The translations under genes were made by a program, and so were the position numbers. The notes under the pieces were generated by a model. The model did not search any database and was not told the origin of the DNA. It was given only the letters and a program-made list of their open reading frames with translations. From a virus, in IMG/VR virus record IMGVR_UViG_3300044616_001723, positions 1-61,833 of that record: a stretch of 61,833 nt of DNA; one strand, given 5' to 3'. Of the stretch, positions 4,009 through 45,292 are shown one piece after another. Position 1 is the stretch's first letter. The number at the start of each line of letters is the position of its first letter.

Positions 4009-4950
4009 TCAGAAAACGCCCGGCTGAGACCAAGACACCTTCCACGCGGCCTGCCCAACCACGACGTCTTCCACGTCGGCGCGCCATTGATGGTTGAGCA
4101 CAAGCCCGTTTTTTTCGATGCCGAAGTACATGACCCTCGGTGCCAAGGTGGCGTGGTATCCGAGCGGTTTCACGGTGCCCTTGTTGCTCGCAAGCATCCA
4201 AGCGCCGTCCGGGAAGTCCTCGATCTCGACCAGCTTGACCGAAGGGTCGTAGTTCGGGTTTCCCTGCGCGACGCCGGGAATTTGTTCCAATCCAACGATC
4301 GCTTTTGCCGTCGCCTTCAAGTTCGACGAATGCAAGAAATGCGTCGGTTTGGTGCGTCGCGGAATACCGTTCGGCCCCTTGCGCTTGGCCATATCCGAGC
4401 GCACCTTTTCGTAGTTCGTCGCATTGCACGCCAAATTGTAAAGATTTGGATACGTTCCCGCAGCCGCACCTTTCGCCGGGTCAATGAGTTGCGTTTGGCT
4501 GAAGAAGTTCGTCCCACCAAGCGTTTTTGCATTGATCAGGTTTGGCACGCCCGCACGAACAGCGTCTCCTTTTCGGTTTGCTGCACGAACGCCGACTTCC
4601 TTGGCCGTCGACGAAATGAGCCCTAACTGCTCCATGCGCATGTCGCGTTCCGTGATCGAGAGGAGTCCGCCAAACGGAGCCGTAAGCACTTCCATGCCGG
4701 CGATCATCGGCACGTATTCTTGAACCATGCTTCCAGCAGCACTCTGGAAGTTGAACTCGTTCGAGGGGACCAACAGGATCCCCTTTTCGTTCACCATCAT
4801 GCTGTCTTCGACGAGTTCGAGAAGCAGTGCCAAATCGAGGCTCGCGCCTTCGTCCAGACCTTCCTCGTACTTCGCCATGATTACGGCGTGTGCTGCTTTC
4901 GCATCCGCCGGAATCGCGATATTTTCGTACATGAAAACTTGCTCGCCCAT
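4009..4950 (-). CDS. Major capsid protein (Mu gpT-like)
   Basis: 313 residues, the size of Mu gpT. The C-terminal half contains the gpT-like arrangement WMLASNKGTVKPLGYH followed by MYFGIEKNGLVLNHQWRADV, i.e. strands of the HK97-fold peripheral domain. Preceded by the small decoration gene and the protease/scaffold gene, exactly the Mu I-(decoration)-T order. The ATG at 4950 follows AGAGCGTAGGTC, a leader almost identical to the one before the decoration gene (AGAGCGTAGTC), so the two capsid genes share a translation signal. Confidence 0.8.
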   Translation of the reverse strand: MGEQVFMYENIAIPADAKAAHAVIMAKYEEGLDEGASLDLALLLELVEDSMMVNEKGILLVPSNEFNFQSAAGSMVQEYVPMIAGMEVLTAPFGGLLSITERDMRMEQLGLISSTAKEVGVRAANRKGDAVRAGVPNLINAKTLGGTNFFSQTQLIDPAKGAAAGTYPNLYNLACNATNYEKVRSDMAKRKGPNGIPRRTKPTHFLHSSNLKATAKAIVGLEQIPGVAQGNPNYDPSVKLVEIEDFPDGAWMLASNKGTVKPLGYHATLAPRVMYFGIEKNGLVLNHQWRADVEDVVVGQAAWKVSWSQPGVF

Positions 4951-5450: not shown

Positions 5451-6614
5451 TCACGCGCTCAGAACCTTGCGAAGCGTATCGAGTTGCTTCGGCTTGATCT
5501 TCCACTTCGTTGCCATGCTGGCGACACGAGTCTCGAAAACCTGTTGCTCGGCAGGGGACTTCTGGCTGGGAATCTTCACCGTCGTTACACCCTTCGGTGC
5601 AACCGGCGATTTCGCCGGAAGACGCGCGTTTGCACCCATATCCGAGACAAACGACGCAACCGTGGCAAGCGATGCCTTCCGCAGCAATGGCACGGCCGTT
5701 TTCGGGATGATCGACAAGTTTTTCTCGATCAACGCGTCTCGAGCCTTGATATTTGCCGCCTTCGCAAGTTCCTGATTCCTGATAATCGCAAGGCTCGCCG
5801 CAACGCTCGTGTCATCGTCGACAGCTTGCGCTGCCGCTGCCTGCTTCGCCTTGTCCTCATCGGACATGCTCGCCGCCTTCTTTGCCTCTTCTTCGAGCGC
5901 AGCGACAAGCTTCGCCTTGTCCTCGTCGGACATTGCAGCAGCACCGTCGTCCTCTTGTTCGAGCTCGCCAGCGGCCTGCATCGCGGCGTTCGCGTTTTCA
6001 CCGAGAGCTTCGGTCAACGCCGCATTTTGCTCCTTTGCCCACGTCGCGAGAGCTTCGTTCGAAGCGCCCATGAGCGCGAGCAACGTAAGCAGCGTGCGGC
6101 CTGCCAAAACCAAATCTTGCTGATCCATGCCGATCCCTTTCCTGCCCTTCTCTGCTGCAAGGCTTGCGAGCCTCCAGCAATGCCACGTCTTCGGATTGTT
6201 GGTCAGACCGACGTTATTGACTCGCGTTGGAATCGCGATGTCGCCGACCATCTTAAAAGAATACCACGGGGAAAGATAGCGAACTTTTGGCGGGTTGCAC
6301 AATAACCACCCTTCGACCATCGGATCCCACTCGACACCAATCGCCCACACTTCGCCATCGCCACGGGCTTCGAGCTTTTGGATCCATCCGGCAGCGGCTC
6401 TATTCTCCGGCGGGGCCTCGAGCGTCGTCGTCGCGTGGTCATGGTCGATCACCATGACGTTTCCGCGCGCATTAAAGATCGCTACCAACGCGTCTGCGGC
6501 TGGCCTCGTCATTCGATGCGGGCCGTCGTCGGTCATGAAATCGCCCGCGGGAAAAATGCGAAACTCCCGTGGCGCCTCTTTTACATCTGCGCTTGCGCCT
6601 TGCCGATCAGACAT
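5451..6614 (-). CDS. Capsid protease/scaffold protein (Mu I/Z-like)
   Basis: 387 residues. Residues about 15-140 match the Mu I protease family: FRIFPAGDF, then VMVIDHDHAT (active-site His region), ENRAAAGWI and WDPMVEGWL...YLSPWYSF. The rest is a long Ala/Glu/Lys-rich coiled-coil with a duplicated block (MSDEDKAK, twice) typical of the scaffold part, and a basic C-terminus that would bind the capsid protein. The start at ATG 6614 is backed by CAGGAG and overlaps the portal stop. It would template the prohead and cleave itself and possibly the capsid protein. Confidence 0.78.
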   Translation of the reverse strand: MSDRQGASADVKEAPREFRIFPAGDFMTDDGPHRMTRPAADALVAIFNARGNVMVIDHDHATTTLEAPPENRAAAGWIQKLEARGDGEVWAIGVEWDPMVEGWLLCNPPKVRYLSPWYSFKMVGDIAIPTRVNNVGLTNNPKTWHCWRLASLAAEKGRKGIGMDQQDLVLAGRTLLTLLALMGASNEALATWAKEQNAALTEALGENANAAMQAAGELEQEDDGAAAMSDEDKAKLVAALEEEAKKAASMSDEDKAKQAAAAQAVDDDTSVAASLAIIRNQELAKAANIKARDALIEKNLSIIPKTAVPLLRKASLATVASFVSDMGANARLPAKSPVAPKGVTTVKIPSQKSPAEQQVFETRVASMATKWKIKPKQLDTLRKVLSA

Positions 6615-8661
6615 GTGCGTTCTCCTGAGTTTGGCTTGGCACAATAACACTACCAGGCGACTTTTGCCCTATGGCTCTCCACGTAATAGGCCACTTATGG
6701 GGCTGTCCCCTCTTGCCAGGCACCATGCGACGGACGCGCTCGATGCCACATTGCCAGCACCTATTTACCCGATTGTGATCATTGCACCGATCAACAGAGT
6801 GCTCGGTCATGAGCCGCGCCAATTCCACTGCATCGGCATCTGCCGGCATGTCGTCCGGCGATGCTTCGCCTTCGTCTTGTGCCGCTGGCGGAAGTGCCAT
6901 CATGTCCGCGCGAGCACTCGCCTGTTCACCGTCAGGCAATGACGTCGTTTCATCAGCTCCGTCCGCTATGGTTTTTCTCGGCGCTGCATGAAGGATTCCG
7001 ACGATGGTCGCAAGATCGACTTCTCGCCACCCGCCAACAAGCTCCGGCCTTCCGACGAGCCGATACCATGCCTCGCGTGCGGACTGCATATCGCCGAACC
7101 CGACAAACAGCTTTACCTCGTCAGGGTTGCCTTCGTGGTCCAATTGTTTGAGCACAAACAGCCTATTCGTGCCCCTCATTGGTCCGACAAATACGTCGAT
7201 CGCTTCGCCGTCTTCGCCCTGCGTCCCTGGGATGTACCCATAAGCAATGGATCCCATCGACACAGCCCAAGGCACGCCACGCTCGTCCGTGCCCGTGCGG
7301 ACACTACCGGCTGGATACTCGACGACAACCGGAAGGCCATCGACGATCACCGTTGGATCTTCGAGCGGCTCCAAGTCTTCGATCTCTATCCCGGCAAGAG
7401 CCGCGAGAGGTTCAGCCTTCACCCGCTTCCCGCGCTTCACGAGCGAGGCATCTGCCTTGACCAGACCATCACCGTACGCGATAAGCGCATCGCCAACGGC
7501 CTTGCGATCTCTCGGCGGGGTTGGATCCCACTCGGCGCGTGGACACGGGTAGCCTTCGCGTTCCGCCCACGGCTCGAGCCCGTACCGCTGAACGACCTCA
7601 GAAAGGTGATCCGCATATTCTTCAATGAACGATTGTGCGGTGTTTTCGTGAATGTCGCCCTTCGACCAACCAGTGCCAGTTTGACCAGACGTTACGGTTT
7701 GCCCTGACAATGCAGTGGCAATATCCGCATCGCTTTCGTTTTTCGTGGCGGTCCACTGCTGGTAACCTTCGCCGGAAATGGACGTGTGTTTTATGTCGTA
7801 GCCCTTTTCGAGGGCCATGACCGGAGGCGTCGGACTCGAAATGATATGCGCCACGATCGCATTCGCGTCTTCGTCGCGGCTTTTCCCTTCGGGCGTTTCG
7901 AGCCACGTGATCCCAAGCGCATGCCGGGCACCTGCCACCGTCCTTTGCTCTTGCGCCTGAATCTTGTCGAGCCACGCCTTACCGCACGGACGCCATTTCC
8001 CATGCAGCCAAAATCTATTCAAGCCCCATGGCGCAAAGACAAACCATCGCCCGTTTCCAGGCTCGATGATGTGTTCGCCATCTTCACCGATAATAAAAAG
8101 GACCTGCTGCCGTGTTACTGGATCGCGTCGCCAATTGATGTGCTGCGCTTCTACAAAATGCAGAACGGGAAGCCCCGTTTTTGGGCATTCGACGAATTCG
8201 CCAAAACCAGCACCGAAGAGAATGCCCCAAATGATGATTCGAATGAGAACGGCGGACGGGAACATCTTCCAAAAGATGCCATCGGTACGCAGGTCTGGTT
8301 TTCCCGCGAGCTTGTAAACAAGCTCCGCAGCACCGTCGAATGTCAACGGCAGCCGAATCAGACCAGCGGCTTGGCTTTGAGTGACACCGCTGATAATCCC
8401 ATCGCCAAGCATCGACTCGACGAACTGCGCGACCATGAGCAACGACTGACCATCCGCGGCAATCATCGCCGCGACGTCGTCGCCTGGATTCCAGACGAGC
8501 CTTGTGCGGTAGTAGGCAACGCGTAGTGGGGCAGATGCAGGCCCGCCCGCGCGACCATCACTTTGACGATGCGCGAGCGAGGTAGATGTCTGGCCTGCCG
8601 GCGGTAATGCCGGTGTGCTTGAGCGAGTCAAGCGAGAAGCTAGCCAACGGAAGACACCCAC
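6607..8661 (-). CDS. Portal protein (Mu gp29/DUF935-like) with C-terminal inorganic-pyrophosphatase-like domain
   Basis: 684 residues, much longer than a bare portal. Residues about 45-400 look like the DUF935/gp29 portal: LVWNPGDDV, then VLHFVEAQHINWRRD, then GRWFVFAPWG and LSGQTVTSGQTGTGWSKGD. Residues about 440-570 match the InPase domain of phage polyvalent proteins: YGYIPGTQGEDGEAIDVFVGP, LFVLKQLD, VKLFVGFGD, AREAWYRLVGRPEL and VDLATI. The C-terminus adds a Cys/His cluster (RCNDHNRVNRCWQCGIERV). The GTG start has only a weak ribosome site. The portal role is solid by family and position. Enzyme activity of the second domain is unproven. Confidence 0.8.
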   Translation of the reverse strand: MGVFRWLASRLTRSSTPALPPAGQTSTSLAHRQSDGRAGGPASAPLRVAYYRTRLVWNPGDDVAAMIAADGQSLLMVAQFVESMLGDGIISGVTQSQAAGLIRLPLTFDGAAELVYKLAGKPDLRTDGIFWKMFPSAVLIRIIIWGILFGAGFGEFVECPKTGLPVLHFVEAQHINWRRDPVTRQQVLFIIGEDGEHIIEPGNGRWFVFAPWGLNRFWLHGKWRPCGKAWLDKIQAQEQRTVAGARHALGITWLETPEGKSRDEDANAIVAHIISSPTPPVMALEKGYDIKHTSISGEGYQQWTATKNESDADIATALSGQTVTSGQTGTGWSKGDIHENTAQSFIEEYADHLSEVVQRYGLEPWAEREGYPCPRAEWDPTPPRDRKAVGDALIAYGDGLVKADASLVKRGKRVKAEPLAALAGIEIEDLEPLEDPTVIVDGLPVVVEYPAGSVRTGTDERGVPWAVSMGSIAYGYIPGTQGEDGEAIDVFVGPMRGTNRLFVLKQLDHEGNPDEVKLFVGFGDMQSAREAWYRLVGRPELVGGWREVDLATIVGILHAAPRKTIADGADETTSLPDGEQASARADMMALPPAAQDEGEASPDDMPADADAVELARLMTEHSVDRCNDHNRVNRCWQCGIERVRRMVPGKRGQPHKWPITWRAIGQKSPGSVIVPSQTQENAHV

Positions 8662-8738: not shown

Positions 8739-9968
8739 TCACGCCGCTGTGACGGCCTTGGGCTGAAGCAAGATCTTGCATGTCTTTGCACCCGCATAAT
8801 TCGCCGGATCGAGACAAATACCCGCTTCGCTGACGAACCCTGCGACGGGCTTCGTAGCGGTGAACTTTCCCGCACCCGTATTCGTATCGTCGGCAGTAGC
8901 AGCGAGCCACACCCGCGCACCAGCGGCGGGCGAACCGCCTGCGGTGGTGAATTGAGCAGCCGCGACTTCGCCGCCCGTTACGAGCTCGCCAGAGGTCCCG
9001 TCGTACACGCCAGCAAATACGCTCTTCGCTTCGACCGCTCTGTCCGTTGCTGTCGCAGTGTTTGCCGCCGATATGTACGCCGCTTGCCCCGTTGCGAGTC
9101 CAGACGTTGTGAGTCCGTTGATCACAACTTGCTTGTGCTTGTGCAACGCTGTCGCGCTGCCTCCAGTGAGAGCGTCAAGGTTTGCCGCAGTGACATTTGC
9201 CGACACGGACGAACCTTCGATTTTGAACCGAGCGGTTCCGTTGTTCGGAAGGTTGAAATTGCCCGTACCCGTGGTTCCCAGCGTTGCGCCGGTTTGCACG
9301 GTGATCGATGTACCAGCGGAATCGATTTCCAGCGCCGTTGTTCCACCGCCCTGCAAACGCATTCCACCAGCACCGTTGACGGTCAAAAACCCGGCTGCTG
9401 TTGACCATGTTGCCGCTGCTGCGCTCGTCAACGTCAGTGCCCCGGCGCTCGTCGTGAAGCTTGACGCAGCGTTCGCCGTGAGTGCTACGGCCCCGCCCGT
9501 CGCGGTGAATGCGCCGACTCGCAACGCCTGCAATGCCCCAAGCGTTGCGTCATCGCCTTGGGTGATCAGCGAGAACACCCACCGCGCATTCGACTCGTCC
9601 CAGATGATCGCGGCCATGTCCCGCTTCGTTCCCGAAGCTTGCCCTCGATCCACGGCCACACCTACAATCGCCGCTGGAACAGCCTGATTACCAGTGCTCG
9701 CGTTCACGTGAATGACACGATCCGTGACGTTGAGCGTGTCGCTTGCGGTTTGCGTTCCTTCGACAATCAGGTTTCCTTTGACGATCACGTTTTTCGTGCT
9801 TCGCCCAAGTTCGACGCTTCCGGCGTTCGTCGCGCCAATCTTCATCGCGGCATCGGCCGCATTCGTGTCGATGCCGATTCCGACAAGAGCCGTATTCGCA
9901 TCCTCGATCGCTCCCTCGTCACGCACGAGTGCGCTATCGCGATAAGTCTTCACTTTTTCTTGTGCCAT
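8739..9968 (-). CDS. Virion fibre or decoration protein
   Basis: 409 residues. The N-terminus carries tail-fibre-like repeats (VKGNLIVEGTQTASDTLNV) and a long Ala/Thr/Gly-rich beta-repeat region at about 130-250. The C-terminal 120 residues resemble a DUF2190-like shell or binding domain (VFAGVYDGTSGELVTGGEVA). The ATG at 9968 follows an excellent GGGAGGACTC site. Lying between terminase and portal, it is more likely a capsid-attached fibre than a baseplate fibre, but either is possible. Confidence 0.5.
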   Translation of the reverse strand: MAQEKVKTYRDSALVRDEGAIEDANTALVGIGIDTNAADAAMKIGATNAGSVELGRSTKNVIVKGNLIVEGTQTASDTLNVTDRVIHVNASTGNQAVPAAIVGVAVDRGQASGTKRDMAAIIWDESNARWVFSLITQGDDATLGALQALRVGAFTATGGAVALTANAASSFTTSAGALTLTSAAAATWSTAAGFLTVNGAGGMRLQGGGTTALEIDSAGTSITVQTGATLGTTGTGNFNLPNNGTARFKIEGSSVSANVTAANLDALTGGSATALHKHKQVVINGLTTSGLATGQAAYISAANTATATDRAVEAKSVFAGVYDGTSGELVTGGEVAAAQFTTAGGSPAAGARVWLAATADDTNTGAGKFTATKPVAGFVSEAGICLDPANYAGAKTCKILLQPKAVTAA

Positions 9969-10041
9969 GAGTCCTCCCAAAGAACACGTTGCACGGCATA
10001 CACCGTGCGTGAACGGCGCGCATCATACACCAGGTTCTCAT

Positions 10042-11757
10042 TCACTGCTGCCGGAATCCCGTTGGCCATCCGTTCGTCGTGCGAACCCCTTGCATAGCCC
10101 CAACCACAAGCGGCTTCCTTGGGCCCATGGCTGCCTCTGCGGCCTTCTTTTCGTCTTTGCTCACGACTTCCGCGCCGATGCCAAACAGGCCGTCGATGAG
10201 CGCAGAGACGGCGTCGGCGTGTTTCGTCGTCGTTCCCCTGCCATCGGCGAGATCCGCCACCGTCGTGCGCGGCACGATGATCACGATCTTGCCGTTTCTG
10301 TTCACGGCCGTGATTGAGTTGAGCTGCACCCGAAGCGATTCCCTTACTTGCTCCGGTAGCGAACCGAGACGAAAGCGGCGTTTCGCAAGCAAACCCTGCA
10401 AAACCGTATACCGCGCGATCTTTGCCTCATGCCCGTCCGGCGGATGACGCAACGTGATCCGATATGGATCCAAGTGCTCTTTGTACGCTTCCGAATAATG
10501 CCGGTCTGCCCACACCGATGCGATCTCGAAGCCTCGAAGGATCACGGCAAATTCTGTGCATGTCTTGCTCGGCAGCAGCGGTTGCCCCTTCGCCGGAGAT
10601 ACCTCGCGCAACGCTGGAGATCCATAAGTGCCGTCGTCGTACGCGTAGACGATTCCGAGCGCCGCCGAGTCCTTCGTAAAACCCAAGTCGCTCCCCGCGC
10701 TTCGGTCGATCGGAGCGTACTCCGGCAGCATCATTTGCAGCGCTTCCGCCACTGCTACTGCATCGAAGAACGAACGGCTTCCCTTCGGCAGCGGAATGGC
10801 CAGAAGCTCGCGATCTGCGTTGATGTCCCCGCCTGGCAGCGAACGCTGCGCAGCTTCGTCCGATCCGTCTGGATCGAAGAGCGGATTTAGCCACCTTGTC
10901 GGAACACGCGCGACGACAAGAGCATGCGCGTGTTTCCCCCAATTTGCCGCGATCAGCTCTTCCATGAGTCCTTCGCCTTCGACCCATGGCGTGGACACGA
11001 TCCAAACAGATGCGCCTCGAGCCAAGCGCGGGCGAAGGCCGTCGAACACGGCTTGATCGTTCACCGCTGCACCTGGATCGGCCGCGAAGAAACACGCCTC
11101 TTCTAGGCCGGCGAAGACGATCGTGAATCCGCGTGCAGCTTCGCCGCCCCTTGCTGCGCTGGTGACTTCGATGCGCACACGAGCGCCGTCAGGACGCTCT
11201 ATCGTGATGCTCTCTCGCGTGACCATCATCCGCCCGCGTTCGTCCCGAGCAACCGCCGCACTCAGTATCGGCGAACGTCGGATCATGCCGACGACAAACC
11301 TGAACGTTTGCTTCGCGTGCCGGCGCTTCGGGCCGATCAAAACGGCCGCTGCCTCTTCACCCGGAGCGAGCAAAGACAGGTCTGCCGTCCACGCACTGTG
11401 AACGCATTTTGTCGCTAGAAATCGCGAGGTTTTACCGCTTCCACGACCAGCTCCCAACGTGACGATTCGGGCTTGCTTTCCAATCGGAAGCATGGAGACG
11501 ACACACCCGAAGATCTGCTCTGCACGTTTGTCGTCGAGACGTGGACGAACCCCATCGCTTGCGTCGACGATCGCCCAACCAACATCTGTGTAAAGTTCTG
11601 GACGAACCCCTCTTGGATCGAGATACGGCCTTGCGAATTGGTCGCTTTCTAGAAACTCTCGAAACGATAGCTTCATCGACTGCGCCGCTTTTTTGCGCGC
11701 TATACGACGATCGATCGCCTCGACAAACGCACCAGATATCTCGTTCTGCTGACTCAT
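10042..11757 (-). CDS. terL: Terminase large subunit
   Basis: 571 residues. ATPase domain with Walker A GAGRGSGKTSRF (about residue 105) and a Walker B-like strand TIVFAGLEEACFF in which GLEEA replaces the usual DEx. The nuclease domain begins GSDLGFTKDSAALG (first acidic residue), then VWADRHYSE and a C-terminal KHADAVSALIDGL. It packages DNA into proheads through the portal. The start at ATG 11757 overlaps the upstream stop (ATGA), coupling it to the putative small subunit. Length is normal for large terminases. Confidence 0.88.
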   Translation of the reverse strand: MSQQNEISGAFVEAIDRRIARKKAAQSMKLSFREFLESDQFARPYLDPRGVRPELYTDVGWAIVDASDGVRPRLDDKRAEQIFGCVVSMLPIGKQARIVTLGAGRGSGKTSRFLATKCVHSAWTADLSLLAPGEEAAAVLIGPKRRHAKQTFRFVVGMIRRSPILSAAVARDERGRMMVTRESITIERPDGARVRIEVTSAARGGEAARGFTIVFAGLEEACFFAADPGAAVNDQAVFDGLRPRLARGASVWIVSTPWVEGEGLMEELIAANWGKHAHALVVARVPTRWLNPLFDPDGSDEAAQRSLPGGDINADRELLAIPLPKGSRSFFDAVAVAEALQMMLPEYAPIDRSAGSDLGFTKDSAALGIVYAYDDGTYGSPALREVSPAKGQPLLPSKTCTEFAVILRGFEIASVWADRHYSEAYKEHLDPYRITLRHPPDGHEAKIARYTVLQGLLAKRRFRLGSLPEQVRESLRVQLNSITAVNRNGKIVIIVPRTTVADLADGRGTTTKHADAVSALIDGLFGIGAEVVSKDEKKAAEAAMGPRKPLVVGAMQGVRTTNGWPTGFRQQ

Positions 11758-12794
11758 GCAGCCTCGGACAAAACTTTCCGAACAGGCGCAAGACACTCTT
11801 CGCAGATCGTGTCAACGATTTTGTTCACAGTCGTTGAGAAATGCGGATGGTTGATGACGTTGATCGTCGTGCCTGTCGGAAACAACCCGAGAAGCTTCCC
11901 GAGGCTGACGATCACGCCCTCGGCGGTTTTGATCGCCGCGCCGACTGCCTTCACGTTTTCCGCCGTCAATCCCCCTTCACCGTCTCCATCGCCGCCCGCC
12001 TTGGTGGTCAATAGCGACTTGGCCGTCGTCACAAGATTCTCCGCATCGACCACAAGCGCCTCGAGCCGGCCCCGGAAAGCTTCGGCAGTCGTGAGGTTTG
12101 CCCGTTCGAGCATTTCGAGCCGAGCCGCCAAAATTGCGCGACCAACGCATTCGTCCCGATGTCGCCGAATGCCAGTGTCCGACGTCCCCGGAAACATTCT
12201 TTCAATGCGTGTGTATGGGACGCCTTCGGCCATTGCATTCTCGATGGCCGTCCGTTCGTCGTGACTGCATACCTTGCACAAAGGGCCCGGCCTCGGCTTG
12301 GCCTGCACCAAAAGGATCGCCCTCGCTTGCTCTTCGGCGCTGACGTCGTTTTTGTTTTCTTCGGAACCATTTGTTGTGGTGGTGGATCCGCCGGTTGGGC
12401 CCGGTTCATCCGCCACCACAACAGCCACCACCGGCGCTTGTTCTGGTGGCGGATCGGTTTGTAGTGGTGGCTGATTGGACTTGGCGCTTGGTTCCGTTGG
12501 CGGGGCCTTGGCGTCCGACGCGTCATCGATTGGTGGGTCGGTCGGTACAGTTGTTTGGCGCGTTCCTTTTGAAGACGGCGGGTCGGTCCCGTGATTCCTT
12601 GCATGACGCTTCAGCGAACTTTCGTTCACCTTGAACCGACCAGCTATTTTTGCCCAGCTTTCGCCTGATTGCTCGCGCCCACGAAGAGCCGCATTTATCG
12701 GCTCGCGTTCGTCGTGGTTGCAGATCGTGCACCTCGTTCGATCCCCTTGGTCGCTTCGGTCGGTCGGATCGTTCGCTCCCGGTCGGTCGGTCAT
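11754..12794 (-). CDS. Putative terminase small subunit with two C-x2-C/HTH modules
   Basis: 346 residues, directly upstream of and coupled to the large terminase. Two copies of a zinc/HTH module: RCTICNHDEREPINAAL...SLKRHARNH (about 21-68) and LCKVCSHDERTAIENAM...RRHRDEC (about 170-215), separated by a Pro/Thr-rich linker. The C-terminal half is helical and could oligomerise. DNA binding by the modules would suit packaging-site recognition. The same module type starts the ERF-like protein at 32183-33277. The start lies at the edge of a strong GGTC/GACC hairpin. Confidence 0.5.
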   Translation of the reverse strand: MTDRPGANDPTDRSDQGDRTRCTICNHDEREPINAALRGREQSGESWAKIAGRFKVNESSLKRHARNHGTDPPSSKGTRQTTVPTDPPIDDASDAKAPPTEPSAKSNQPPLQTDPPPEQAPVVAVVVADEPGPTGGSTTTTNGSEENKNDVSAEEQARAILLVQAKPRPGPLCKVCSHDERTAIENAMAEGVPYTRIERMFPGTSDTGIRRHRDECVGRAILAARLEMLERANLTTAEAFRGRLEALVVDAENLVTTAKSLLTTKAGGDGDGEGGLTAENVKAVGAAIKTAEGVIVSLGKLLGLFPTGTTINVINHPHFSTTVNKIVDTICEECLAPVRKVLSEAA

Positions 12795-16146: not shown

Positions 16147-16782
16147 TCATGGTGCGAAGGTGTATTGGGGCGATTCTTTGGACTCGCCGTCTCGAAGGCC
16201 GCAGAGGCCTCGAACGTATTCGAATGCCGCTTCGTGAGCATCGAATTGAGCATTTGTCAGGCGGTTGAACAGGTTCCGGTGAACGCTCTTTCCGGACGCC
16301 ACCAAGATCATCCTGTGCCCCGCGAGCGCTCGAGCGGCGAGAGCGATCCCGAGTTCCGTCGCGGCCCCTTCCGAGAGCTGCTGCGGAACGAGGATCCAGA
16401 CGATGTCTGCGGAAAGCACCGCATCGAAGTCTCGTTTCGCGACGCCCTGCCAAGCCTGGTGCACGTTTTTGTCCAGCCAACCCAAAAGCCAATCGGGATC
16501 GTAGCTGTCGCAAGCCGTCCAATCATAGGCGACTTCGATACCCGCTTCGCGGGCCCGCTGAATCCACTTCTGACCAACGTCGATCCGTTCGGTGGATCCC
16601 CCGGCGATGTAGACCCGCTTCACGTGTTTGTCGCGACAGATGGCCCGTGACGAATCGCATGAAGCACCGCGAATGCCCGCGTGCCTTCGAGCCAAAGCCC
16701 TGCCGAGGATCGTCTCCGACCCGTCGCGGACTGCGTTCGTGCGCCCATTGCACGACGTTCGTTGGTTGCCGTCGTGACTCAT
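16147..16782 (-). CDS. Nucleoside 2-deoxyribosyltransferase-like protein
   Basis: 211 residues. After a basic N-terminal 60 residues, KRVYIAGGSTERID gives the Gly-rich first loop, WTACDSYDPDW a nucleobase/deoxyribose contact, DAVLSADIVWILVP the Rossmann-like core strand, and GAATELGIALAA the conserved Glu region used as nucleophile in this superfamily (NDRT/DUF4406). Coupled by ATGA to the MazG gene, so both may handle nucleotides. Substrate unknown. The true start could be later, near the Gly loop. Confidence 0.62.
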   Translation of the reverse strand: MSHDGNQRTSCNGRTNAVRDGSETILGRALARRHAGIRGASCDSSRAICRDKHVKRVYIAGGSTERIDVGQKWIQRAREAGIEVAYDWTACDSYDPDWLLGWLDKNVHQAWQGVAKRDFDAVLSADIVWILVPQQLSEGAATELGIALAARALAGHRMILVASGKSVHRNLFNRLTNAQFDAHEAAFEYVRGLCGLRDGESKESPQYTFAP

Positions 16783-17696
16783 TGGCCACCCTCGACAACC
16801 GCGCCGCAATGCCTTCCCGAGTCCAGATGTTTGGAAATGATGGCTTCGGCTTTCGCGCGATCTTCTTCCTCGAGTTCGACGCCAGGATGCGGCGTCCCGC
16901 CATCATGCAGCGCGATCGCGAGCGGGACGCCGCCGCACCCGACACACAAGCCGTCTTGGTCCACAGCCGGCGATGCGGAGCACGCGCAAGTCACGCACGA
17001 TCCGCACGGGCATCCTTGCAATTGGAACGTGATTGGTGGCAACCCGTCGTTCAGCCTTTGTATTTCTGCTGCATCCGGCGTATTGCCCAATCCCATCACG
17101 TAAACAACAGCGTAGCCATTCGCTTGTGATATCGCGCGAAGCTTGTTCAGGTTCTCGTTCATCACATATTCCAACGAAATGCCCATGGAGTCAGCCATCG
17201 AATCAACAAAAGCGAGAATCTTGCCGAGTTCTTCGACAATCGACTTTTGACGATTCTCTGTCAGAGCGCCATAATCATCACGGATCGCCTTCTTCATGTG
17301 CTCGGCAATGCGTCCGGCGTGAATGACGATTTTGCAACCGAATGCGAGAGCCAACGGCAAGTCGCTTGTCGCCATTCTGTGATTGGTATCGAGTGCCGAC
17401 ATGTGCACACCCAATTCGTCGCAAATTGCCGCGATGTACCACAATACATCACCAAGCTCTTGTATGGTGTTCAGTCGTTGCCACGGGTGCAACAGCAGCG
17501 TTTCGACGACCTCGGAAGATTCGCCAACAAGGCCAAAAAAGATCAAGTGCCCCGAACGCTTGTCCGGGAATCGAGCAAGTCGCGCCGATTCGAGCTGATA
17601 CGCGTCAAGCGCAAGCCGCAACCGGGTCAACTCGTTTTCCCCGTACTTTGCTTCGGGTCCGTTTTTCACCAGCATACTTTCCATCGTACGATTCAC
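16779..17696 (-). CDS. MazG-like nucleoside triphosphate pyrophosphohydrolase
   Basis: 305 residues. Residues about 50-100 carry the MazG signature: GLVGESSEVVETLL then QELGDVLWYIAAICDELGV, giving the E-x3-E and E-x2-D metal sites. A second helical region (GRIAEHMKKAIRDDYG...SIVEELGKILAFVDSMAD) looks like a partner half of the same fold. The C-terminus has a Cys-rich finger (GCPCGSCVTCACSAS...GLCVGCGG). It likely hydrolyses dNTPs or ppGpp. The start GTG 17696 overlaps the GIY-YIG gene. Confidence 0.78.
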   Translation of the reverse strand: MNRTMESMLVKNGPEAKYGENELTRLRLALDAYQLESARLARFPDKRSGHLIFFGLVGESSEVVETLLLHPWQRLNTIQELGDVLWYIAAICDELGVHMSALDTNHRMATSDLPLALAFGCKIVIHAGRIAEHMKKAIRDDYGALTENRQKSIVEELGKILAFVDSMADSMGISLEYVMNENLNKLRAISQANGYAVVYVMGLGNTPDAAEIQRLNDGLPPITFQLQGCPCGSCVTCACSASPAVDQDGLCVGCGGVPLAIALHDGGTPHPGVELEEEDRAKAEAIISKHLDSGRHCGAVVEGGQ

Positions 17697-43115: not shown

Positions 43116-44780
43116 TCATGCCGATTGGAACATTTGCGCAAACACGACGCGCTCTGCTATCGGCGGACAAACCGAGTTTCCAGCAAGTGCCGTTTGCGCC
43201 GTTTTCGTAAGCGGCTTCCCGTTGTATATTGGCGAAATGTTGTAATCGCTAGGAAAGCCCTGCGCGGCGAACAATTCGCTCGGATCCAACATCCTCATGC
43301 CAATGTCCACGATGTCGTACAACTGCCCTTTGATGCTGATTCGCCCCATGTCTCTCGACTTGTCGCCAGAGGCATCCGATCCGAACGTCAATTGGACATT
43401 CGCCTGCCTTCGGTTCTCTGCATGCTTTTTAAGAAAAGCACGCACCTCGGCGATATGACCGCACCCGACGATTGTCGGCAGCGGGTGGTCAACCGTCGCG
43501 CCGGTGCCTTGCCCGTAAAACTTCGTCAAGAATGCAGCGGCTAGACCGTGGTGGTCGGTTTCTGTAACTGCACCAAGCGGCTCATTGATATCTAATCCAG
43601 GCGGTGGTTTGCCATTGTCCCCACCTCCGAAGTGCTTCATGACGAACGGCATAACGATATGCTTGTCATTCGTCGCGCATACCGTAGCCAACGGGCTTTC
43701 GAGCGGCTGTCCTCGAAATGTCCCTGCCCCGCATCCTTCATCGATGCCTGCACCTGTGATCGTCGAGTAGTGCCCGTGTCGCACGATGAACGGAGCCACG
43801 ATCGCGTGATGGTCTACAGTCGTTATCGTACCGATCGGCGTTCGTGCATCGGCACCAGACGTGCCCCTTGGGCCGCCAAAATGCTTCGCGATGAACGGCG
43901 CAACGAATGCCAGTTCGCCTCGATTCGCCGCCGTCACGGTGCGCATCGGGTCATCGATGCCGTACGCCCTCGGCTCCCCTTGGTGGGTCAATGGGATGAT
44001 AAACGGCTGCTTCGCCCCAAAGACATAACGATCAAGTCCTTTCGCGATGCGCTTCAGCGTCGCATCCGCGAGCGGACGAGAGCGTTCGAATATGCTCGTG
44101 CATGGGATGTTCCAGTTGATCACTTCCGACGCCGGCCGCCACGCCTTGCTTCGACCTTTGCCATGCGTTGGTTCTGGCCAAACGATCGGCTGTCCGTCGC
44201 ATCGCGCCACAATGAAAAGACGGTTGCGCGTTGTAGGTGCGCCATAATCAGCAGCTACCATCGAACGGTATTCGACCTTGTATCCAAGATCCGACATTCG
44301 CCCGATCCATGCCCTGAAATCGCTCCCGATCTGTTCCTTTATCGGACGCCCTTCGTCATCGAGCGGGCCCCATGTTTCGAACTCGGTTACGTTCTCGATG
44401 CAAATCACCCTCGGACGAACCGCCTCGATCCACCGAATTACCACCCACGCCAAACTGCGGATCTCTTTCTTCCTCGGTTGTCCGCCCTTCGCTCGACTAA
44501 AATGCGTGCAGTCCGGGCTTGCCCAAAGCAATGCCACGCTTTTGGACCCGCACGCCTCACGTGGATCCACGCTCCAAATATCCTCTTGATAGTGTCGCGT
44601 TTCCGGATGATTCGCGGCGTGCATGGCAATCGCGCGAGGGTCATGGTTGATGGCGATATCCACCGAACGATTGATGGCCTTTTCGATGCCCGTCGACGCA
44701 CCGCCACCGCCGGCGAACAGGTCAACCACCATTTCGTCAGAACCGACTCCATAAACGCGCAACGCAGGGGGACGTGCCAT
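43116..44780 (-). CDS. DNA (cytosine-5) methyltransferase
   Basis: 554 residues. Motif I VVDLFAGGGGASTG, motif IV LWASPDCTHFSRAKGG (Cys in SPDC), motif VI VICIENVTEF, then motif VIII-like YGAPTTRNRLFIV (QxRxR region), a long target-recognition region with three similar segments (APFIAKHFGG; PFVMKHFGGG; AAFLTKFYG), and motifs IX-X (ELFAAQGFPSDY; ALAGNSVCPPIAERV). Likely protects phage DNA from restriction. It follows the ASCH gene in unit H. Confidence 0.85.
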   Translation of the reverse strand: MARPPALRVYGVGSDEMVVDLFAGGGGASTGIEKAINRSVDIAINHDPRAIAMHAANHPETRHYQEDIWSVDPREACGSKSVALLWASPDCTHFSRAKGGQPRKKEIRSLAWVVIRWIEAVRPRVICIENVTEFETWGPLDDEGRPIKEQIGSDFRAWIGRMSDLGYKVEYRSMVAADYGAPTTRNRLFIVARCDGQPIVWPEPTHGKGRSKAWRPASEVINWNIPCTSIFERSRPLADATLKRIAKGLDRYVFGAKQPFIIPLTHQGEPRAYGIDDPMRTVTAANRGELAFVAPFIAKHFGGPRGTSGADARTPIGTITTVDHHAIVAPFIVRHGHYSTITGAGIDEGCGAGTFRGQPLESPLATVCATNDKHIVMPFVMKHFGGGDNGKPPPGLDINEPLGAVTETDHHGLAAAFLTKFYGQGTGATVDHPLPTIVGCGHIAEVRAFLKKHAENRRQANVQLTFGSDASGDKSRDMGRISIKGQLYDIVDIGMRMLDPSELFAAQGFPSDYNISPIYNGKPLTKTAQTALAGNSVCPPIAERVVFAQMFQSA

Positions 44781-44791
44781 TTGATCACCAA

Positions 44792-45292
44792 TCAAGCTGC
44801 AATACCAAGCGAACGAAGCACCACGCTTCGATCGACGCTGGAAAACTTTTGCGGGCCTCGGAATGGCTCGTGATGCACGAACCTTCGCGCGTGCTTCAAT
44901 GGCCACGCGTATCGATCCGCCGCATAAAAACACGCCGCCGCTTCGTCTTCCGGCAGCAGCAGCCGAGACGGCGCCTCGACCCAAACCAGCCCCGCCAATT
45001 GGCCAGACAAGTACCCGAAGAACGGCAACCCGAGCCGATTGCATACCGACTTGTCGAGATGTTTGGCCGCTTGAATCACGAGCCAACTCGACTCGTATGG
45101 CCACGGCCACGTGCGCGTCTCAATGGTTTTCTTGCCGTCCACGACCAAACTCGCGTACGGCTCCCATAACGAAATCACTCGCACCATGTCCGGCAGTGGA
45201 AAGGGCAAGATCCCGCATTGACCATTTGCCGCTTTTGGCAATGAGTCATCGAATAGAAAAAGACTCGCCGTCTTTGCGCGAGCGATTGGCAT
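44792..45292 (-). CDS. ASCH-domain protein
   Basis: 166 residues. ISLWEPYASLVVDGKKTIETRTW is the ASCH opening; WLVIQAAKHLD and LAGLVWVEA follow as the RNA/nucleotide-binding barrel strands. Start at ATG 45292 with GGGAAG. ASCH proteins bind RNA or modified nucleosides. First gene of unit H. Confidence 0.78.
   Translation of the reverse strand: MPIARAKTASLFLFDDSLPKAANGQCGILPFPLPDMVRVISLWEPYASLVVDGKKTIETRTWPWPYESSWLVIQAAKHLDKSVCNRLGLPFFGYLSGQLAGLVWVEAPSRLLLPEDEAAACFYAADRYAWPLKHARRFVHHEPFRGPQKFSSVDRSVVLRSLGIAA

Follow-up and report, generated by a model that had tools for sequence, protein, structure and literature searches.

Portals are ring proteins through which DNA passes into and out of the phage head, and their C-terminus faces the head interior. 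Fusion of an InPase domain to a portal was reported earlier for BcepF1.124 by Iyer et al. 2017 (PMC5512222), who proposed that the domain is injected and might either clear pyrophosphate (PPi) or attack nucleotide signals, and who described the InPase subfamily as lacking the beta-hairpin of the cellular family I enzymes. Furthermore, a later survey named portal or MuF proteins that bear a fused 2H, Nudix or ART domain (PMC9503650), and in temperate phages MuF genes lie immediately downstream of the portal genes and carry toxin domains (PMC5576092). A literature search combining "pyrophosphatase domain", "portal protein" and "phage" returned nothing, the fusion having been published under the name InPase.

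The portals of this described type combine a Phage_portal_3 core with an InPase domain and comprise BcepF1.124, PB1 gp18, Pa193/E217 gp19 and the proteins of vB_Eco4M-7 and Serratia phage SMP. In PB1, BcepF1, vB_Eco4M-7 and SMP the InPase domain lies at the end of a protein listed as "minor head protein" or "structural protein", whose homologue in Pa193 is the portal gp19. The E217 portal was modelled for residues 97-528 of 765 (PMC10329688), and residues 529-765 of Pa193 gp19 gave no discernible density in a structure paper from which the word pyrophosphatase is absent (PMC11042391). We found the InPase domain of Pa193 gp19 (PDB 9b41) at residues 636-747, inside the stretch without density.

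The window, by which we mean the whole 61,833-base stretch of virus DNA analysed here, encodes such a fusion on a portal of another family (Table 1). An earlier note on this DNA had read the gene as a gp29-type portal running into an InPase domain, and both the profile searches and the predicted fold bear this reading out. The gene is a single frame of 684 aa with a GTG start on the minus strand, and its coordinates, 6607-8661, were confirmed. We regard the architecture, Portal_Mu and InPase in one protein, as virtually certain. The portal-InPase fusion is already published as a kind and the note identified it rightly; what is added here is the Mu-type portal partner, the recurrence of the domain on portals, the retention of its invariant residues, and the swapping-in of other enzyme domains at that position.

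Table 1. Features of the portal-InPase fusion gene and of neighbouring head genes (positions in the window).
Feature	Position	Strand	Basis or remark
Portal-InPase fusion gene	6607..8661	-	684 aa; true start possibly up to ~40 codons further in
Portal_Mu domain, residues 81-418	7408..8421	-	Pfam PF06074 and structure matches
Short linker between portal core and InPase, residues 419-437	7351..7407	-	Edges of both profile matches
InPase domain, residues 438-560 (profile match 438-535)	6982..7350	-	PF18823, AlphaFold2/Foldseek, invariant residues
C-terminal tail, residues 561-684	6607..6981	-	Mostly low-confidence model; no relatives found
CX2HX5CX2C cluster, residues 626-638, possible zinc site	6748..6786	-	Pattern; no homologue found
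Mu I-type head-maturation protease, overlapping the portal end; candidate processing enzyme	5451..6650	-	Mu-like_Pro PF10123, 85.9 bits; phrog_328
Terminase large subunit	10042..11796	-	Terminase_6N (weak, just above cut-off) and phrog_2
Major capsid protein, Mu gpT-like	4009..4950	-	Phage_capsid_4, Mu-like_gpT, phrog_371

The Portal_Mu profile matched with 75 bits (cut-off 23.9, E 9e-21) over model positions 4-329 of 336, and the best PDB matches of the modelled portal were the portals of JBD30 (8rka) and Mu (9knu/9khx), with probability 1.00. The gene is placed between the terminase and the head protease and capsid genes, in an ordinary Mu-like head/tail module that has the terminase upstream and the protease, gpT-like capsid, gp36-like and DUF2586 proteins downstream. 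From its family, the portal is expected to form a dodecamer at the head vertex. The gap between terminase and portal holds a 413-aa ORF (8739-9980, minus strand) with no Pfam or PHROG match; Mu-like phages usually have no gene there. Elsewhere in the record we observed a 664-aa protein (43116-45110, minus strand) with C-5 cytosine DNA methylase matches in two stretches, and a 305-aa MazG-type protein (16779-17696, minus strand; PF03819 and PF12643 matches), a possible functional partner of InPase. MazG nucleotide pyrophosphohydrolases are enzymes of the type that releases PPi.

Could the fusion have come from faulty assembly, or from a degraded frame read through by chance? The record is metagenomic, neither the whole portal nor the terminase found a close relative in viral contigs, and the exact junction is thus seen in this genome alone. 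However, the junction is in frame, and between the portal part and the InPase part there is no jump in G+C, third-position G+C or codon usage, which argues against a chimeric assembly. With head genes in ordinary order on both sides, and with equivalent fusions in other contigs and in isolated phages, we consider such an origin extremely improbable.

The InPase profile search that the earlier note had suggested as a check gave a strong match on residues 438-535, with 90.8 bits against a cut-off of 26.8 (PF18823, E 8.5e-26, model positions 14-111 of 135), and this was the single InPase match in the whole record. The peptide that the note had quoted, YGYIPGTQGEDGEAIDVFVG, corresponds to residues 474-493 of the fusion protein. 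A full-length AlphaFold model was good for the portal and poor for InPase, whose rows were nearly missing from the underlying alignment, and a separate AlphaFold2 model of the domain and tail, with 33 other viral InPase rows, was used for this part. In that model residues 438-560 mostly have pLDDT above 90, and all 50 PDB matches listed by Foldseek are family I inorganic pyrophosphatases (probability 1.00). The TM-scores to these enzymes are low over the whole chain (0.23-0.30), a result for which the disordered tail is, in our view, at least in part responsible. By these matches the predicted domain has the OB-type fold of family I pyrophosphatases.

We judged residue conservation over 91 phage InPase domains, and found that the window domain retains every invariant or near-invariant column, namely E448, R455, G457, W465, Y474-G475, D484, D489, Q506, D514-E515 and K517. 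The acidic metal-binding residues (E448, D484, E486, D489, D514 and E515), whose absence had been named beforehand as evidence against the reading, are likewise kept. Aligned to E. coli Ppa, the domain pairs E448 with E20, Y474 with Y55, D484 with D65, E486 with D67, D489 with D70, E515 with D102 and K517 with K104. The functions of these paired Ppa active-site residues are established. The two proteins share the fold, the YGY...D-G-D/E-x2-D motif and a downstream acidic-x-Lys; unlike Ppa, the window domain is fused to a portal, its alignment leaves the E31/R43 stretch unmatched, and the C-terminal Tyr-Lys pair is unrecognisable; E31, R43, Y141 and K142 have no clear counterpart. A profile comparison with canonical pyrophosphatases covered 26 columns, aligning the YGY...D core alone. 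In the alignment with Ppa, the gap opposite the residues around R43 and the shorter stretch from E448 to Y474 agree with the beta-hairpin absence published for the subfamily (PMC5512222).

Catalysis might have been lost, leaving InPase with a structural part in the head, for example in binding DNA, scaffold or protease. The window domain has E486 for a commoner Asp, Val516 where a His is usual beside the Asp-Glu pair, a long branch in the domain tree, and no canonical R43 region. However, Glu at the E486 column is an accepted state (18% of the 91 domains, against 82% with Asp), the near-invariant residues are all kept, and the same invariant set is retained in every other portal-fused InPase examined; we consider a purely structural role unlikely. 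Retention of the near-invariant and metal-site residues makes hydrolase chemistry likely, and we think it probable, from the alignment, that the domain is catalytically active as a metal-dependent phosphohydrolase.

Downstream of the domain, the Cys/His cluster at the end of the protein that the earlier note had pointed out is present, as C626-x2-H629-x5-C635-x2-C638. When the whole window was shuffled 100 times, 13 of the shuffles gave at least one such pattern, so the motif is weak on its own. A search for relatives of the tail that contains it found none, and as the pattern is also not rare enough, we claim no function for this tail.

Turning to distribution, the terminase of the window phage has one distant phage relative (Virus Rctr16k). 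In viral contigs, whose loci carry L numbers here, InPase occurs in long proteins, InPase-DarA_N proteins, short standalone ORFs and portals; the portal-fused loci are Phage_portal_3 fusions in L075 and L082 and a Portal_Mu fusion in L076. The polyvalent and InPase-DarA_N proteins share PF18823 and the invariant residues with the window domain, and differ in that their InPase belongs to large multi-enzyme or DarA_N proteins rather than a portal. In a 468-aa protein (L094:5206-6609) the InPase domain is preceded by a metallopeptidase-like HELGH motif. The Phage_portal_3 group and the window have in common a C-terminal InPase domain on the portal, the same invariant residues and a head gene module; in contrast, the portal belongs to PF06381 in that group and to PF06074 in the window, and InPase starts ~160-180 residues after the portal core there and ~20 after it here.

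Relatives of the window portal were found at 53 viral loci; their C-terminal tails are short or helical, and InPase is absent from all of them. A search of genome contigs gave just three portal relatives, again without InPase. With some 50 relatives lacking it, the domain is not essential to this portal type. In a second, distant Portal_Mu clade (43 loci), with C-terminal extensions from ~20 to 1,532 residues, we found InPase on the portals of five distinct phages (L159/L160, L161, L177, L191/L192 and L194), while four further members have it as a separate ORF inside the fetched flank. These fusions resemble the window protein in their Mu-type core and C-terminal InPase and differ in their longer linkers; one, a 936-aa protein (L076:3583-6390, also L080, L159 and L160), has a weak nucleotidyltransferase-like match (NTP_transf_2, E 0.03) between the two domains. 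We found no published description of Portal_Mu-InPase portals in viral contigs. Furthermore, a 2026-aa protein of the same clade (L155:5932-12009; L155 and L165 share a contig) starts as a Portal_Mu portal and runs on into matches to methyltransferase, PAPS reductase and ART-PolyVal, so that by its domain matches this portal is a polyvalent protein in its own right. At L086:4139-6465 a standalone InPase ORF of 182 aa follows and overlaps a weakly portal-like one of 598 aa, a pair that looks like an unfused version of the portal-InPase pairing.

On the portal-core tree the InPase label needs at least four changes, the starred branches alone forcing four, and the window portal lies apart from the other InPase cases, its nearest relatives (L096-L099) having no InPase. 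The tree shows what reads as repeated, independent gain or loss of InPase on Mu-type portals. The InPase domain tree has little resolving power, and none of the alternative groupings was rejected by AU tests; the domain itself may have been captured once or several times by portals, and only the portal tree speaks for repeated events.

MuF polymorphic toxins likewise place an enzyme domain on a head protein at the portal vertex (PMC5576092), but there the carrier is the MuF protein and in the window it is the portal itself. Whereas a MuF-type head-morphogenesis gene comes next in the Phage_portal_3 phages, none was found in the window record, where PF04233, the MuF family searched, gave no match at E <= 1; MuF as the carrier was therefore dropped. 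No toxin or immunity gene was identified in the record.

As a whole, the explanation we find best, with about an even chance of being right, is a portal-carried InPase delivered to the new host. The Mu-type portal carries an InPase of the polyvalent-protein kind at its C-terminus, the end that in portals faces the head interior. The domain would be a working metal-dependent phosphohydrolase, and, given the portal family, up to twelve copies per virion could be tethered there as cargo. Most likely the head-maturation protease encoded next door would cut it loose, or it would come free at ejection, and it may then act early in the newly infected cell, either by removing PPi in favour of phage synthesis or by cleaving a nucleotide signal of host defence. 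The earlier note had anticipated twelve virion copies, cleavage by the prohead protease and an effector role on DNA entry, which are plausible and agree with the published proposals for InPase (PMC5512222). In other phage proteins we found InPase beside DarA_N and ddrB-ParB domains. These two domains are known from virion-packaged antirestriction proteins, and together with the other enzymes on related portals this is the strongest indirect support for a delivered effector, a role to which we give about even odds.

What speaks most against delivery is that no release step can be seen. The linker has only ~20 residues, no protease site was recognised, and the missing density for the InPase part of the Pa193 portal fits flexibility as well as removal. 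InPase might instead stay on the portal, undelivered, and hold the local PPi down by its pyrophosphatase activity, either within the cell that makes the phage or at the vertex, while heads are assembled and packaged or earlier. The intact active-site residues and the missing cleavage site suit this reading, the MazG-like gene of the record is a possible PPi source, and no portal is known to exit the virion. However, packaging converts ATP to ADP and phosphate, not to PPi, twelve copies per head would gain little beside the abundant host enzyme, and the relatives of this InPase are mostly found in large virion-type polyvalent proteins; we consider an attached pyrophosphatase rather doubtful.

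The best reading of the comparison is that the portal C-terminus, inside the head, is a recurrent attachment site for virion-carried enzymes. A bolder and distinctly speculative form of this idea is that the Mu-type portal C-terminus would serve quite generally as a docking site, used over and over, for enzymes that can replace one another (InPase, nucleotidyltransferase-like, ADP-ribosyltransferase and PAPS reductase). Released by processing, these would enter the cell along with the DNA and counter host defence in the first minute, filling the role of MuF-borne domains elsewhere; the target of InPase would then be a nucleotide signal induced by infection and not plain PPi.

Portals are usually regarded as fixed structural parts. 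That one enzyme domain was attached repeatedly to portals of two families, and keeps its invariant residues there, suggests that the portal vertex carries enzymes in the virion. In addition, a stretch left unmodelled in published virion structures, residues 529-765 of Pa193 gp19, can now be said to contain an InPase domain. As isolated Pbunaviruses that grow on P. aeruginosa PAO1 bear such portals, the question is open to direct study.
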